A stretch of DNA of 33,894 nucleotides from Candidatus Omnitrophota bacterium (lineage in GTDB: Bacteria > Omnitrophota > Gorgyraeia > 2-01-FULL-45-10), in assembly GCA_016929115.1 (NCBI GenBank), contig JAFGJL010000024.1:1-33894 (forward strand), read 5' to 3'. Shown in pieces: positions 1 to 6,792 of this stretch. A program made the position numbers and the translations under genes. How positions within the stretch are numbered: position 1 is the stretch's first letter; the number at the start of each line of letters is the position of its first letter. The notes under the pieces were generated by a model. That model was not told the DNA's origin, made no database searches, and saw only the letters and a program-made list of their open reading frames with translations.

Positions 1-3000
1 GTCGCGCCGATATTGTTCCCGTCTATTCTGGCGGTATCCAGCCTGTCTTTTGTGTTATCCCAGGCAACGGCCCCGAACTCATCGCCGCCGATCCTGAATA
101 CGGCCTCCATGTCCTGCAAGGACGGGTTTTCGAATATGTAGTTGATGAGGGCCTTGAAATTATCGTTACCCCTGAAGATGCCGTCGCGCTCCGATATGTT
201 CTTTGACCTGTAGAGGACCATCTTCATTATGAGCGCCCTCCTGGCCACTTCAACATCCGCAGCCACGCCTCGGGCCAGCGCATCTTGATAATTTTTGATC
301 AATATTTCATAGGTATTGGCGGCGTCATATTGTTCATGTATGGGGGCATGGACGCCGGCATATTCATTGCTTAATCCGTAACGCTCGTCGAGCTCGTATT
401 CCTTGCGCGCCTTATCCGAATAGACGCCAAGGCCGCTTTGCCGCCTGACCTTCGCGCCGCTCTCATCCGTAAGGCTTAAAAGTTTTTTCATCTCCTCCCC
501 AGCCCTGCCCGCATCGCCTTTCATGGCCGCTTCCAGAAAGCTCTTATAGTAAGGGCTGAACCTAAGCTGGACGGCCTTCGCCACTTTCGAGGCTTGCCCT
601 CCCAGCTCGTCCGCCAATGCCGGCGCCTTTTCAGGCGAGGTTGCGCTGGTTGTGACTTCGGACAACCCTCCGTACATGTTTACCATATCGATGCCTATCT
701 CCTTAAGCATGCGCTCATAGACTTGAGGAGCAACTTCCTTGTCAAGATACGGCAGGATAGTCTCGCCAACGTCTTTTATTACCGCACGCTTGAATGCCAG
801 GTCCTCCTCGGTCTTTGGGTCGATGACCCTGTTGAGCGCCTTCTGGATACCCTGCTTTTGAGCTTCCGTGCTCACGCCCTTGAATATAAGGAAATATTCG
901 GGCCCCATATTATAGACCTCGCAAGTCACGCCCGGTGCCTCGCGCGCCAAGGCCCGATTGAAATGCTCCTGGAACAAGCGGCCTATGACATCAAGGGCCG
1001 CATCGCCCAGCGCGTGGCTGCCGACGCCGAGCCTCTTGCCCATATCGTTAAAATCGCCCTTAAAGTTCTGTATCTTGAAATAACCGACCTGGACCCCTTT
1101 CGAGCGCTGCAGGGCAGCGACCAACCTCTCTTCATACGCATCCCTGTTGTCGAGCGCTCCCGGCGCCCTCCTAGACTGGAACGCCAGTCTCTCGATGCCC
1201 TTCGCCAGCTTGGCTTCATTCGCTTTTTCTTCAGGCGTGAGCTGCCGCACCGCTGCCGTGTCCATGACCACAAGGGTTGTGTCGTCCTCCGACCTTGGCC
1301 CGCGCAGCAGCCGCGCCATCTCAGCGATGCCCGCGCCTTTCTTTATCGCATCCGAGGCTTTTTGCTCAAAGGCTTCGTCAGCGTCGACGGGCAATATCTG
1401 TCCGGTATTCTCATCCACCTTGTGGAACAGGGCGCTCTCAAATCTGCCGTCCTTTTCGTTCCAGACCCTGGCAGGAGCTTCGGAAAGCCCGTCGCTGAAA
1501 AGGACGGCGTAGCGGGCGTTCCTGCTGATCACGACGCTTGCCCTCTTCGGAGATAGCTTTGTAAGCGGGCCGAGGCCGACACCTACGGTCGCATTGTCCA
1601 CCTTCGTCGGACTGTCAAGCATCTTCCCCTTGTCATCCATTATCATGACATTATGGCTGCCGGCGGAAAGGCGATAGGCTGTACCTGTTGCGGCATCGAC
1701 GATGACAATGGTATATGTCATGAAGTCGGCTATTGACCTGTTGGTCTTTTGGGTGAACGCAAGCGCGGCCTCCTGGAGGCAGCCGTAATAATCCATCAGC
1801 GCTTGCGATACCATCCTCTCGTCGCCCTTGGCCTCGGCTATGGCGTCCATCAGCGTCTTTTTGTACTTTGCCTCGAATATAGCGGGTGCGTTGATATCCC
1901 TGTAGGCATCCTTATATTCCTTTATCCCGCCTTTATATTTTGCTTTTTCTTCGGCGGGAAGGTTATTGAACGCCTCGACAAGGTCACTTACGACCACAAG
2001 CCACGGCGAAGCCATTATCCCGTGCCCCATGGCGTCAGCTATCTGCATGACGGTGAACCGCCCGTCCGAGGTTCTTTCCTGCCTGTGCCAGTCGCCGCCG
2101 ATGCCCTGCAGCTGTTTGTGATATACGCCGATACCGGGGACTACCCTCTCGAGCGCTTTTTGCATCGCTTCCTGATGCGCCATCGATTGGTTATCGGTGA
2201 TCTCCAGCAGTTCGTTGGCGCTAGCGATATCGCCGTTGTCGAAGAAAAATACGCGAGCCTGCATCATTTCGGTCCGTTCGGTGCTCGTTAATTTCGCGCC
2301 TCGCTTTACCCTCGCTTTGTCGAGGGCTGCGTACGCGTCCATGGCGCCTTCAAGGTATCCGCCGAACGTCTTGTAGGCCAGTAAGTTCCCCAGGTCCCTC
2401 ATGCCATCGTTAAAGGATATGCCGGCGTTGCGCATAAGCCTGGCCGCGTATAGGGCGTCGCGGCTCAACTGGGCGGTTTCGAATTCTTTTCCTGTCTGCC
2501 CTGAGAGCTCGTGCGAAAGCTCATGCACGAGGCCCATGCTGAGCACGATCCTCCTCGTCTCTCTTTTCGCTATCCTTGTGATAGCCCTGTTCACGCCTAT
2601 AAAACCGTTATAGAGGTGGTCTTCAAACATATGGGTGGAGGAATCCAGCATGGTCATGACCAGCGTGGGAGGCAGCCTGTTTATGTCGCCTTCTTTACCA
2701 AGCCTTGCCAGGGCTTCGGAGATAAGGTTGCCCACATCCTCTTCGGATAATTGCAATTCCTCGTCGACCACTACTTTCAGCGGCCGCTTATTGACCGTAG
2801 GCATTATCTCGAGCGCTATTCCCGCCGCTTTCAGGCGCTCGCCGAAGGTCTCCACGCCTGCAGGGTCCTTGAATTCCGCTTTTATACGCCTGCCTAACAC
2901 CACCTTCTCCGACTCGCGCCCCGCGCCTGTCTTCAGCTCCATCGCTTCGGCATGGGCGACGGGCCCTGTGGGCGGTGTGAAAAGGACAAGCTCCTCGGCT

Positions 3001-6000
3001 TTGCTGTAGGGAATGCCTTGCTCGGCCATCATCCTTAATATGGACGCATAAGGGGCTATATCTTTTCTGACCTGCAGTATCGTCGTGCCGCCCTTTTCGC
3101 GTTTCAGGGCCTTCTCCTCCGCCTCTCGCGCGAAGAAGTCGTTTATCCCTTCGCGCACCGCGCTTATAACCAAGTTGTTCAGCTCATTATCGTTCTCGTC
3201 CGTGTAAAATCCGTCCCCCACGTACATCCTGCGCAACTGCTCCATCAGGACTTCCAGCGTTGAGCGTTGGGCCATGCCGAGGTCGACATACTGGACAGGC
3301 TCTCCCATAGCCCGGGCGTTTTCCCTTCGCACAAGGTTCTTTCCGTATAGGTCCGAGATGGAGACGCCCTTATCGTTATCGAATGTCAGGAGCCAGCCCC
3401 TGATAACTGTCTTGACGGCATCGCGGTACGCCGCCTTTCTCTGTTGCGGGTCGGAGATCTCATCCAAAGCTACGCCGTCAAGGAATTCGCCGAAGGAAAA
3501 GGCACCTATCCGGTTATCGCTTAACTGGTTGTAGAAACTTCGCGGATCCCCCTTGTCGCGTTCCGCATCCGCGAACTCCTTGGCGCTTACCATACCCTTA
3601 ACGAAAATGGCGACACCATCCAGCTCGCGGAAGTCCCTAAACTGCTTCACCTCTTTATCAGCTATCTCTGCTATGCTAGGCTGCTCCCGCTCGAAAGCAT
3701 GGTAGCCGGGCGTCCTGTAGACACGCAAGCCGAACACCGCGGGTTTTCCATCGACCATAGCTTCAACCCGAAAAACGTCTTTCTCCGCGCCGCTGCGTAT
3801 GTATGAAACGCGGGTGACGACGATCGTGCCCGCGAGCGGATATAACGCCTTTATCCCCTGCGTGCCCTGCACCTCGCTGCCGATAAGCTGCCGTATAATC
3901 GCCTCGTATTGTGAGTTATTGATCTTTCTTGTGACGCCATCCTCTTTGAGCTCGAATTTGACGACTGGATCCAGGCGGACAGGTTGAGCGCCTTGAGACG
4001 GCATTGCCGCAGCCTGCATGTAATCCCGCATGGTCGCGCGCCGTTCGGCCCGGGCCATGGCCCAGACGGGCTTATCCAGCATGGCAGCGGCTCCATCGAG
4101 TGGTGGAAGCTCGTTGCCCGGCTTCCAGCTTTCCGCTGCCTCGGCTATGAAATGGTCGCCGGTGATACCTGCGACGGCCTCATGCACTATGAGATCGGCT
4201 ATTTTCTTGGCGTCCGAAGCGTACTTAGCATTGATATGTATGCCCTGTCCGCCGGCGTGGGCGTCAAAAACCGCGTTGCCCACATCCACCAGATTTATAT
4301 CCAGTTCGCCGCTCTGGACCTGCCGCGCGATCTCGTTCAATTTATCGGCGTTTACCCGGTTCTGTCTCGAGAGCGCCCCCGCCATTGCCCGGATACGCTT
4401 CGCGGCTTCTGCGCGCATCGCGGCATCTACTGCTATCGCCTTTCCTGCCCGATACGCCTCCCTTATAGGCCTATCGATGTCGACCTGATGGACGCGATCG
4501 ACCAGACGGGCAAGTGACATAGTAACAGTCTTTCCACTATCCCCGAACATAAGCATTTTTCCGTCGGGAAGCGTAATCCGCACCGTTCGCCCCTTTACGA
4601 GTTGCCTTTGCACATATATTGCCGCCCGGAATGCGATTATCTTGTTATCGCCCCAGACCGGGGCCATGGCAGTCGATAACATGCTTGCAACCTGTATAGA
4701 TGACATGGAAGCGATAGCGCGATAGAGATCGCCCGTCATATCGCTTTCCGTACCGGCTAACAGGCTGAAATAGGGACACACATATCCTTCTTCGCTCCTG
4801 AAAGTTGGTACTATCGATATATAAGATATGTTGCTCTTCCTGAAGAGGTCGCAAAGGTTTTCCGTGTGAAATCCGCCCGTGACGATGATGGCGGCCTTGA
4901 GCTTTTCGCCACCAAATATTATATTTCGTAGGAACGCATCATCTCTCTTGAACGAGTAGTCATAAAATGAACCTATCTTCTCGATATATACGTTGATGGA
5001 TGTAATATCGTTGTCAAGCTTGGCCTGGATAGAGTATTTCGGAGCTTCGCGGTCGACAAAACGGATGTAGTTATTTATGTCAAAACGGTCCTTGTGCGCG
5101 AGGTAGTATTTATAATCGTCACGCGTGATTTTTATTTCAAAGATGTTCTTCATTATTATAAGGTCTTTGCATAGCTCGGCAAGATGGCGCTGCGTATCGT
5201 TCTCGCAGAGGGACTGCCGTACGGCCTCCTCAAGCCGGGCCATCTCGTCGTTAAGAGCGGCTTTATCGATCATCTCATACATGGAAACGTAGCCGATATA
5301 GGCATTCAGTTTCGGGTAATCCTTAATATTAGCCTCTACCCCCCTAGCCTTCTTTATAAGATAAAGATAGAATTCGCTCGGGCCCAGCCTTCCTTCCTTG
5401 AACTCGAGCGTCATCGCCATGAGCTCTTTTAGGTCCTTCTTCGACATGGACTTCTGGAGCTTATCGATGAGGGCGTCTCGCTCGATGTCGGCCTTCTTGA
5501 AATTTATGAACTTCTCCCTGTCCAGCGCCTGTTTGAGCTGGCCTATAGCGGGGAATGACCCAAGCGTCACGCCTTTCTTGTCGGCGTACCCCAGTAGGGT
5601 CTCAAGATAATCCTTGAACTCCATACCCTGTTCCTTATAGGCATTATGGGCGATGTCAAAATCGATGAGATCCTTTGAGTATATCCTGGGCTTCAGGTTG
5701 GTCAATATGTGGCGAAGCGACTGCAGCCACTTGTCGACCTTTGTTTTATAGGCCAGGGAATCCCTGTAGACAGCCAGGTTATCCAGGTAAAGATCGGGGT
5801 CTTCCACGCCCCAGAGCTTTACTTTGCCCGGGTTGTTGACGGCAAAGGACTCGCCACCGTTCAAAAGGCCTTCTTTAACGAAATAGTCTGTCACCTTTGC
5901 CCGGTCTTTGGGGTCTCTTATCTCCGTAAATAACGAAAGATCATATTCCCCTGAGCCGCCCTCGAGGTTTACCGACTCGATCCCGTATTCGTTCGCAAAA

Positions 6001-6335
6001 TAACCAACCAGATCAGAGATACTACGCTGCGCATAATAGTTGCAATGGGCATCTTGTATCTGAATGACGATCTTCCTGCCGGTTCCCATGAACGAATCTT
6101 TGACGTAGCCCAGGTATGCAGGCACCACGATCGCCTCGAGGCGCGATTCTCCGGATGGGCCTGAGCCGCCAGAACTAGCGGAGCTGACGCGAGAAAGCTC
6201 CGGCACTGTCCTGGCAGCCCAGGCTATGTCATATGATGCCTGACTAAACAAAAAAGCCACCAAGGTAAACGCTGTAACCAGCGTTTTTAGTGGCTTTTTG
6301 TATATGGATATCCAAGATCTCGCGTCTAATCTCAT
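1..6335 (-). CDS. Giant multidomain exported signalling protein (partial, C-terminus outside window)
   Basis: One frame stays open for 2,111 codons from the ATG at 6335 to the window edge. Start chosen because GGAGG lies 5 nt upstream; an in-frame ATG 12 nt earlier lacks such a site. Residues 1-38 form a signal peptide or anchor (hydrophobic 18-35). Residues about 88-515 resemble TraB/ChaN/Tiki proteins (D95, H97, E125, H490 in TGGFHT). H718-E719 and H728 lie in an HEAVAG-type motif. Residues about 800-1060 look like a degenerate protein kinase: D995-L-Y-G-K-N1000 as catalytic loop and D1018 in VDLG as the DFG equivalent. HELSH at 1271-1275 is an HExxH zinc motif. Residues about 1395-1690 are a SpoIIE/PP2C phosphatase (GGD 1413-1415, D1434 in DAMGHG, D1615 in FSDGLSEA, D1684/D1685). 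A degenerate GGDEF (MGPEYF, 1810-1815) precedes an intact RIGGDEF (2083-2087) without an RxxD inhibitory site. Domain motifs are seen; overall function is unknown. Confidence 0.85.
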   Translation of the reverse strand, partial: MRLDARSWISIYKKPLKTLVTAFTLVAFLFSQASYDIAWAARTVPELSRVSSASSGGSGPSGESRLEAIVVPAYLGYVKDSFMGTGRKIVIQIQDAHCNYYAQRSISDLVGYFANEYGIESVNLEGGSGEYDLSLFTEIRDPKDRAKVTDYFVKEGLLNGGESFAVNNPGKVKLWGVEDPDLYLDNLAVYRDSLAYKTKVDKWLQSLRHILTNLKPRIYSKDLIDFDIAHNAYKEQGMEFKDYLETLLGYADKKGVTLGSFPAIGQLKQALDREKFINFKKADIERDALIDKLQKSMSKKDLKELMAMTLEFKEGRLGPSEFYLYLIKKARGVEANIKDYPKLNAYIGYVSMYEMIDKAALNDEMARLEEAVRQSLCENDTQRHLAELCKDLIIMKNIFEIKITRDDYKYYLAHKDRFDINNYIRFVDREAPKYSIQAKLDNDITSINVYIEKIGSFYDYSFKRDDAFLRNIIFGGEKLKAAIIVTGGFHTENLCDLFRKSNISYISIVPTFRSEEGYVCPYFSLLAGTESDMTGDLYRAIASMSSIQVASMLSTAMAPVWGDNKIIAFRAAIYVQRQLVKGRTVRITLPDGKMLMFGDSGKTVTMSLARLVDRVHQVDIDRPIREAYRAGKAIAVDAAMRAEAAKRIRAMAGALSRQNRVNADKLNEIARQVQSGELDINLVDVGNAVFDAHAGGQGIHINAKYASDAKKIADLIVHEAVAGITGDHFIAEAAESWKPGNELPPLDGAAAMLDKPVWAMARAERRATMRDYMQAAAMPSQGAQPVRLDPVVKFELKEDGVTRKINNSQYEAIIRQLIGSEVQGTQGIKALYPLAGTIVVTRVSYIRSGAEKDVFRVEAMVDGKPAVFGLRVYRTPGYHAFEREQPSIAEIADKEVKQFRDFRELDGVAIFVKGMVSAKEFADAERDKGDPRSFYNQLSDNRIGAFSFGEFLDGVALDEISDPQQRKAAYRDAVKTVIRGWLLTFDNDKGVSISDLYGKNLVRRENARAMGEPVQYVDLGMAQRSTLEVLMEQLRRMYVGDGFYTDENDNELNNLVISAVREGINDFFAREAEEKALKREKGGTTILQVRKDIAPYASILRMMAEQGIPYSKAEELVLFTPPTGPVAHAEAMELKTGAGRESEKVVLGRRIKAEFKDPAGVETFGERLKAAGIALEIMPTVNKRPLKVVVDEELQLSEEDVGNLISEALARLGKEGDINRLPPTLVMTMLDSSTHMFEDHLYNGFIGVNRAITRIAKRETRRIVLSMGLVHELSHELSGQTGKEFETAQLSRDALYAARLMRNAGISFNDGMRDLGNLLAYKTFGGYLEGAMDAYAALDKARVKRGAKLTSTERTEMMQARVFFFDNGDIASANELLEITDNQSMAHQEAMQKALERVVPGIGVYHKQLQGIGGDWHRQERTSDGRFTVMQIADAMGHGIMASPWLVVVSDLVEAFNNLPAEEKAKYKGGIKEYKDAYRDINAPAIFEAKYKKTLMDAIAEAKGDERMVSQALMDYYGCLQEAALAFTQKTNRSIADFMTYTIVIVDAATGTAYRLSAGSHNVMIMDDKGKMLDSPTKVDNATVGVGLGPLTKLSPKRASVVISRNARYAVLFSDGLSEAPARVWNEKDGRFESALFHKVDENTGQILPVDADEAFEQKASDAIKKGAGIAEMARLLRGPRSEDDTTLVVMDTAAVRQLTPEEKANEAKLAKGIERLAFQSRRAPGALDNRDAYEERLVAALQRSKGVQVGYFKIQNFKGDFNDMGKRLGVGSHALGDAALDVIGRLFQEHFNRALAREAPGVTCEVYNMGPEYFLIFKGVSTEAQKQGIQKALNRVIDPKTEEDLAFKRAVIKDVGETILPYLDKEVAPQVYERMLKEIGIDMVNMYGGLSEVTTSATSPEKAPALADELGGQASKVAKAVQLRFSPYYKSFLEAAMKGDAGRAGEEMKKLLSLTDESGAKVRRQSGLGVYSDKARKEYELDERYGLSNEYAGVHAPIHEQYDAANTYEILIKNYQDALARGVAADVEVARRALIMKMVLYRSKNISERDGIFRGNDNFKALINYIFENPSLQDMEAVFRIGGDEFGAVAWDNTKDRLDTARIDGNNIGA
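6250..6299 (-). terminator. Intrinsic-terminator-like hairpin inside the 5' coding region of the giant gene
   Basis: A 10-bp perfect outer stem (6251-6260 with 6290-6299, AAAAAGCCAC/GTGGCTTTTT) encloses an 8-bp inner stem (6267-6274 with 6279-6286) with a 4-nt loop. On the minus-strand transcript it ends in six U. It starts about 34 nt after the first base of the start codon and encodes part of the hydrophobic signal segment. Structure seen; a role in premature termination or attenuation is inferred. Confidence 0.6.
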
Positions 6336-6340
6336 CTTGG

Positions 6341-6345
6341 CCTCC
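6341..6345 (-). promoter_or_regulatory. Ribosome binding site deciding the start of the giant gene
   Basis: GGAGG on the minus strand, 5 nt before the ATG at 6335. An in-frame ATG at 6347 overlaps this site and has no comparable sequence upstream, so 6335 is preferred. Confidence 0.6.
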
Positions 6346-6362
6346 ATGGCCGAACTTACTAA

Positions 6363-6405
6363 AACTTTTTAAATAGTTGCCAAAAAAATAACTTTTTGAT
6401 TAGTT
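6363..6405. repeat. Tandem near-palindromic 16-nt repeat in the leader of the giant gene
   Basis: AACTTTTTAAATAGTT (6363-6378) and AACTTTTTGATTAGTT (6390-6405) match at 14 of 16 positions and are 27 nt apart start to start. Each has AACT/AGTT inverted ends. They lie between the predicted promoter and the start codon of the giant gene, a plausible place for a repressor or an RNA-level control site. No regulator can be named. Confidence 0.45.
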
Positions 6406-6450: not shown

Positions 6451-6478
6451 ATTATATCATGTATGAGGGAGAATTCAA
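6451..6478 (-). promoter_or_regulatory. Predicted sigma70-like promoter for the giant gene
   Basis: On the minus strand TATAAT (6451-6456) is preceded by TGA, giving an extended -10 element. TTGAAT (6473-6478) fits a -35 at 16 bp spacing. The transcript would have a leader of roughly 110 nt. An orphan AAGGAGG (6433-6439) lies just downstream of the expected transcription start without a usable start codon beside it. Confidence 0.5.
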
Positions 6479-6564: not shown

Positions 6565-6650
6565 TGGTGGTGAGAGAAGGATTCGAACCTTCGAAGGCTT
6601 TCGCCGCCAGATTTACAGTCTGGTCCATTTGGCCGCTATGGTATCTCACC
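6565..6650 (-). tRNA. tRNA-Tyr (anticodon GTA)
   Basis: Class II tRNA of 86 nt. The acceptor GGTGAGA pairs with TCTCACC, discriminator A, and CCA is encoded. The anticodon stem CCAGA/TCTGG carries loop CTGTAAA with GTA. A long variable arm and the T-loop GGTTCGAATCC are present; the long variable arm is expected for bacterial tRNA-Tyr. Confidence 0.95.
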
Positions 6651-6716: not shown

Positions 6717-6792
6717 TGGAGCTAGCAGAGGGAATCGAACCCCCGACACCCGGTTTACAAAACCGGTGCTCTACCTGCTGAGCTATGCTAGC
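6717..6792 (-). tRNA. tRNA-Thr (anticodon TGT)
   Basis: A 76-nt tRNA including encoded CCA. Acceptor GCTAGCA pairs with TGCTAGC; the D-arm contains TAGCTCAG. Anticodon stem CCGGT/ACCGG carries loop TTTGTAA with TGT; the T-arm is GGGGGTTCGATTCCC. Its first 10 nt overlap the end of nnrD. A 66-nt spacer separates it from tRNA-Tyr, so the two are probably one transcript. Confidence 0.95.

Follow-up and report, generated by a model that had tools for sequence, protein, structure and literature searches.

A predicted RNA element with gene-specific loop letters spans the first codons of giant genes in one class of Omnitrophota

Comparative evidence shows that giant genes in one class of Omnitrophota, uncultured bacteria, carry, across their first ~60 codons, three predicted hairpins (P0, P2 and P4) and an 8-bp pairing between two segments named E1 and E4. 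On this evidence P2, the terminator-like hairpin at which the analysis started, is the middle helix of a larger putative element, and the covarying core of that element is the loop–loop pairing E1:E4. A conserved fold in the messages of giant genes points to an undescribed form of control over them. Such genes are costly, and little is known of how bacteria control them. An RNA fold that overlaps the signal peptide would also explain the unusual conservation of the peptide and its flanks.

The window (the whole stretch of 33,894 nucleotides that was analysed) comes from a genome of 79 contigs and 1.50 Mb, here G000, and its features are collected in Table 1. The giant open reading frame on the minus strand has 2115 codons counted from an upstream ATG at 6347 and is open at the window edge; by the same numbering, a Pfam SpoIIE domain covers residues 1433–1696. 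The in-frame ATG at 6335 is the likely start codon and is preferred over ATG 6347, since GGAGG stands five bases before it. The predicted promoter would imply a 5′ UTR of ~110 nt for the giant gene.

Table 1. Features at the start of the giant gene, in window coordinates.
Feature	Position	Strand	Remarks
Giant gene with signal peptide	3..6335	-	3′ end beyond window
Predicted sigma-70-type promoter TTGAAT-16-TATAAT	6451..6478	-	Consensus scans
Shine-Dalgarno GGAGG	6341..6345	-	5 nt ahead of likely start codon ATG 6335-6333
P0 hairpin	6312..6340	-	CCAAGAT (6340-6334) with ATCTTGG (6318-6312)
E1 = GACGCGAG	6319..6326	-	+10 to +17 from start codon; exact reverse complement of E4
P2, terminator-like hairpin	6251..6299	-	In signal-peptide codons of KKPLKTLVTAFTLVAFL
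U-tract of P2 (T6)	6250..6255	-	Homologs have codon bias towards T at this place
P4 hairpin	6159..6224	-	Outer 6224-6211 with 6172-6159, inner 6202-6197 with 6184-6179; A4 and A5 covariation
E4 = CTCGCGTC	6186..6193	-	P4 loop, complementary to E1

The 5′ UTR has a T-run at window positions 6384–6378, and homologs likewise have one ~50 nt ahead of the start codon. In many homolog 5′ UTRs (e.g. L005, L006, L021, L022 and L037) a T-run lies directly 3′ of a hairpin. Together, hairpin and T-run form a second terminator-like structure ahead of the gene, which is weak in the window. Further upstream, a terminator-like hairpin at ~6557–6519 (minus strand) lies just past tRNA-Tyr. The tRNAs of the window are at 6565–6650 and 6717–6792, and tRNA genes are also upstream in L009, L012 and L021.

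The original prediction placed a perfect 10-bp outer stem, an 8-bp inner stem and six U's in the first codons of the gene, and all of these are present at 6250–6299. On the minus strand, the outer stem joins 6299–6290 (AAAAAGCCAC) to 6260–6251 in a perfect 10 bp, and the inner stem joins 6286–6279 to 6274–6267 over 8 bp, with loop GTTA. Five of the six U's are shared with the outer stem, as part of its 3′ strand, and stem and U-tract are thus partly double-counted. P2 begins at +37 relative to the likely start codon. Its minimum free energy on the minus strand is −28.2 kcal/mol (z = −5.5), and none of 200 dinucleotide shuffles is as low; the plus strand at the same site gives z = −3.5. A feature of intrinsic terminators is a GC-containing stem followed directly by a U-rich tract, and P2 has this arrangement. 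A simple terminator scan of the window, with a loop limit of 8, found three terminators, none at P2. The best combination of hairpin and U-tract near the start of the window gene scored −26.9; when the codons were redrawn at fixed protein according to the usage of that gene, the mean was −3.6, and 0 of 60 redraws were as low.

A homolog search with the N-terminal 194 residues as query found matches in 62 of 97 related genomes, and the 84 loci came down to 75 once duplicates were removed. A hairpin of −12 kcal/mol or lower followed by a T-run stands near the start of the reading frame in 43 of these 75. P2 is conserved, with compensatory changes, in Omnitrophota homologs ~50% identical in protein. 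RNAalifold found no common structure over all 27 hairpins together, because they fall into two register classes offset by one base. The alignments were split into these classes as A2 (17 sequences) and A3 (8); the two hairpins with a 3-nt deletion in the loop, L012 and L020, were omitted. In the first class, 87.9% of cells are paired and 19 cells show double changes, where shuffles give 6.7; in the second, 91.0% are paired, with 12 against 3.8.

Codon choice gives a second line of evidence. At fixed protein, 38 genes with the element average −21.0 against −5.8 for redrawn codons, and in 28 of the 38 at most one of 60 redraws is as low. The 36 other homologs average −7.2 against −3.8, with 6 of 36 at that level, and the comparison between the groups is descriptive because the element group was chosen partly by its hairpin (L063 was retained in it although the hairpin was undetected in the fetched stretch). 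At the U-tract of 27 genes, TTT accounts for 48 of 49 Phe codons (27.8 expected from each gene's usage) and TTA or TTG for 20 of 23 Leu codons (6.3 expected). The P2 stem ends between +74 and +108 from the start codon (median +87.5, 32 genes), and stem and T-run are kept despite an unrelated peptide in L027, L030, L039, L049 and G004:C322. (In our table of 3′ ends, the G004 row in fact represents a 5′ element.) The proposal that selection maintains the structure is thus borne out by the homologs, in which the same hairpin occupies the same place and its pairing is kept by compensatory changes rather than lost, and by the synonymous codons. Its suggested terminator-like character agrees with the codon bias of the U-tract and with the stem and T-run of homologs with unrelated peptides (G004, L027 and L030).

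P2 was not found in all genes that have E1: none is clear in L061 and none was seen by eye in G393. L031 has, in place of P2, a long near-perfect palindrome with GGGACAG. A similar GGGACAG palindrome lies 3′ of another gene (L157), perhaps a dispersed repeat that was co-opted as P2.

In P0 of the window, the start codon sits at the junction of 5′ strand and loop, and E1 is within the loop. In homologs, different letters pair at the same position (e.g. CTATTAGAT/ATCTAATAG). Over the 9 pairs of P0, 72.1% of cells are paired, with 12 double-change cells, and 2 of 500 shuffles reach this paired percentage. P4 lies ~60 nt beyond P2 and in the window encodes the signal-peptidase region AWAAR plus the linker after it. 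The P4 model matches the window at G000:C52:6154-6226:- with E = 1.1e-12, the sequence itself being part of the model. With copies from 3′ ends included, P4 has 21 pairs, 87.0% paired cells and 70 double-change cells against 24.0. The A4 alignment omitted L031 and also L029, which has a long insertion between P2 and P4. This insertion is in frame and resembles a dispersed palindromic repeat; E1 and E4 of L029 are still complementary.

E1 is an 8-nt sequence of the P0 loop with a median position of +7 from the start codon (32 genes); its partner E4 mostly falls shortly beyond the codons of the signal peptide. Across 19 aligned sequences, 96.7% of cells in the 8 bp of E1:E4 are paired, with 20 double-change cells against 2.5 and 0 of 500 shuffles as high, a statistic that is not independent because the A4 rows were picked for a complement already seen. 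A less biased count comes from a covariance model of P0, P2 and P4, since this model holds no E1:E4 pairs. Run over 63 loci, it gave 61 rows, of which seven (four antisense echoes, two 3′ copies and one weak match) were excluded from the count. Letters were present at both sites in 32 of the 54 usable rows, and one site was gapped in 22. In these 32 rows, 19 of which are A4 rows, 247 of 256 E1:E4 pairs are Watson–Crick against a permuted mean of 176.3. Reduced to 15 unique combinations, the count is 111 of 120 against a permuted mean of 62.5 and a maximum of 90. The 13 rows outside model building hold 100 Watson–Crick pairs out of 104, and codes from outside model building include GACGGTAG/CTACCGTC, AACGGCAG/CTGCCGTT, AACTTCAG/CTGAAGTT and AGTGCTCG/CGAGCACT.

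The letters of this pairing tend to differ between genes of one genome, with four different codes in G286. Among 13 genomes with at least two genes, codes (typed by hand) are repeated within a genome once against 3.96 expected (fraction 0.029), a modest effect. A second exact copy of a gene's own E1 lies ~100–125 nt upstream of E1 in nine of 44 genes (L005, L006, L007, L020, L045, L062, L130, L131 and L143), against 0.17 expected. Most of these copies are 7–11 nt past a −10-like box, and so near the predicted 5′ end of the transcript. Inspection by eye also showed near copies in L018 and L031 and perhaps one in the window (AAGTGAG, ~6448–6441). Two control windows held no upstream E1 copies of at least 7 letters. 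Private codes were not shared significantly more with a gene's own 5′ UTR than with those of other genes (480 of 5000 shuffles as high).

A model of P4 alone, run over 40 genomes, gave 48 rows, which by their positions were classed as 29 in gene starts, 13 past a stop codon and 6 that echo the same palindrome in antisense. The non-internal sense matches (13 of 13) are P4-type hairpins that lie −1 to 110 nt past the stop, many with a T-run. Five genes with such a hairpin have both ends on a single contig, and in all five the loop at the 3′ end complements the gene's own E1 exactly: L045 with the rare GACGTGAG/CTCACGTC, L061 and G393 with GACGCGAG/CTCGCGTC, and L055 and L006 with GACGCTAG/CTAGCGTC. 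L006 has both an internal E4 and the 3′ copy. No internal copy was found in L055 or L061 within the fetched locus, in L045 (judged from the upstream copy of the same code) or, on visual inspection, at the start of the G393 gene. Three further genomes have a 5′ fragment that lacks an internal E4 and agrees with a 3′ end on a different contig (G017, AACGCTAG/CTAGCGTT; G033, GACGCTCG/CGAGCGTC; G003, GACGCTAG/CTAGCGTC), and the two may belong to one gene.

Eighteen 3′ ends were examined. Four were unusable (L158 and L174 were not reached, L162 was masked and L169 is probably out of frame), and L157 and L172 were compared without a given E1. Genes with an internal E4 and a clean 3′ end had a 3′ copy in 0 of 9 cases, and no partner was found past the stop codon in L026 and L052. 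The spacing of E1 and E4 runs from ~150 nt up to ~14 kb.

All 11 homologs in named genomes are from Candidatus Omnitrophota or Omnitrophus, and in a sample of the phylum the full model matched 29 of 384 genomes at E <= 0.001, all of one class. The giant proteins (window 3–6335 and homologs) share an N-terminal domain with the motif DAHCNYYAQ, for which there was no confident Pfam or NCBIfam match, and the domains after it vary (SpoIIE, methyltransferase, M48). Complementary E1/E4 were also found in three genes without a DAHC motif read (L116 with PPDK_N, L120, and L128 with GNAT); the element thus goes with the start of the gene and not with any one protein family. Over the element, no Rfam family scored at or above its gathering threshold; in the window and across 20 homolog loci tRNAs alone did so, and in 6 loci, with E allowed up to 1, every non-tRNA match fell below gathering. 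Searches of the open-access literature in PMC turned up no such element named in Omnitrophota. Two other candidates were rejected: a ligand-binding riboswitch, for which there was no Rfam match, and a programmed −1 frameshift at GCUUUUUUG, which would meet an immediate stop in many but not all homologs and for which no close downstream structure was seen.

We think there is an even chance that P0, P2, P4 and E1:E4 act together as a cis-acting mRNA element that controls giant secreted-protein genes through a latch, an early terminator and codes of their own. The mRNA channel of an initiating ribosome covers the position of E1 (median +7). With E1 at ~+7 to +14, inside this footprint, the kiss and initiation would exclude each other, and E1:E4 could be a latch that holds the untranslated giant mRNA silent or limits initiation. 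P2 would be an early intrinsic terminator, cutting some transcripts short before the polymerase has copied the long gene, and it might be relieved by a closely following ribosome or another antitermination step. An own loop code for each gene would keep the pairing inside one message. Counting against this explanation, an internal P4 would be unfolded by each translating ribosome. We propose tentatively that the private loop–loop code of each gene amounts to self-recognition of the message in cis, over up to ~14 kb, that gates translation and, via P2, transcription.

The fixed distance of stem and U-tract from the start codon while the peptide changes would also suit a plain translation-coupled attenuator, in which P2 terminates unless the first ribosome covers it and P0 and P4 are incidental or tune initiation. 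Ribosomes are able to repress terminators in coding regions (PMC7858274, in excerpt). This reading is unlikely, as it leaves the covarying E1:E4 and the 3′ copies unexplained and as, in the excerpted text of PMC4824070, the first ~100 nt have the least ribosome protection in E. coli. According to the same excerpt, an E. coli terminator that lies within the first 100 bp of a coding region is efficient and mostly escapes ribosomal repression because the ribosome is still behind; in a construct of Li et al., translation cut efficiency by only about 10%. These early terminators weaken the case for a P2 relieved by the ribosome. If Omnitrophota resemble E. coli, P2 would stop transcription strongly by default, and relief would have to come from RNA polymerase pausing (perhaps at P0), from a factor or from the fold itself.

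The hairpins past stop codons, the E1 match in genes with both ends known and the second E1 copies near predicted 5′ ends are what one would expect of end-to-end or 5′ clamping of the mRNA, in which the kiss protects long messages from decay or recycles ribosomes and P2 is a stability or pause structure. However, E4 is mostly inside the coding region, only ~150 nt off and unable to join the ends, and the nine internal-E4 genes with clean 3′ ends have no 3′ copy. We give clamping a low probability.

The pairing letters themselves bear on whether RNA or DNA is the paired form. Cells with G.U outnumber those with A.C by 72 to 15 in P2 and 65 to 18 in P4, as expected for sense-strand RNA; in P0 the counts are 17 to 12. 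E1:E4 has 147 Watson–Crick cells, 0 G.U and 3 A.C (G.U in 0 of 152), and a DNA repeat could give this zero just as a strict kissing helix could. A DNA-level inverted repeat, with E1 and E4 as operator half-sites, recombination sites or mobile-cassette ends and not as RNA partners, would account for the missing G.U cells and for an element that precedes different domains. It is very improbable: both copies lie in loops of covarying, G.U-holding hairpins, their spacing ranges from ~150 nt to ~14 kb, several codes in one genome are hard to fit to one binding protein, and the place relative to the start codon is fixed. RNA is favoured by the loops of covarying hairpins, the fixed distance and the gene-specific codes. 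Least credible of all is a by-product of signal-peptide codons, in which AAA/AAG for Lys would naturally pair with TTT/CTT for Phe/Leu. Lys-rich and Phe/Leu-rich arms do pair here and randomised codons keep some hairpin, but the gap between observed and randomised energies in the 38 element genes, the survival of P2 through peptide change (L027, L030 and L049) and the compensatory pairs contradict it.

In the proposed cis-acting element, an intragenic terminator-like hairpin would be joined in one fold with a covarying start-codon kiss. Each gene's letters predict its own partner, which makes the idea testable. If it is true, long-range cis pairing with gene-specific codes joins the known bacterial mRNA controls, as a new class of gene-specific mRNA self-recognition encoded through coding sequence.

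In attenuators of the trp type, an intrinsic terminator lies in or close to a short reading frame. Another attenuator of this layout is pyrBI (PMC4824070, in excerpt). P2 is similar in being intrinsic-terminator-like and ~90 nt into a translated frame. Unlike in classical attenuators, there is no leader peptide, P2 sits in the main gene's own signal peptide, and no antiterminator strand was seen by eye in homolog 5′ regions. The EAR processive antitermination RNA, as excerpts of PMC7858274 present it, is likewise a cis-acting RNA of a very long transcription unit; unlike EAR, the Omnitrophota element has no Rfam match. Terminators of IS elements limit read-through from outside promoters (PMC2965389, in part), and hairpins near the gene start could similarly block read-through, with tRNA genes upstream in the window. 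In icaR of Staphylococcus aureus, a 3′ UTR motif pairs with the message's own ribosome-binding region and interferes with initiation (PMC3868564, in excerpt). A 3′ UTR segment complementary to the gene's own initiation region is likewise found in all five genes that have a P4-type hairpin past the stop and both ends on one contig, and in none of nine internal-E4 genes with clean 3′ ends. The Omnitrophota pairing differs from that of icaR in its site just past the start codon, in being formed by hairpin loops, in having a second partner that is usually within coding sequence, in letters that covary across genes and in the terminator-like hairpin placed between the two. By analogy, the element would work most like the self-pairing of icaR, as described in that excerpt, combined with an attenuator.
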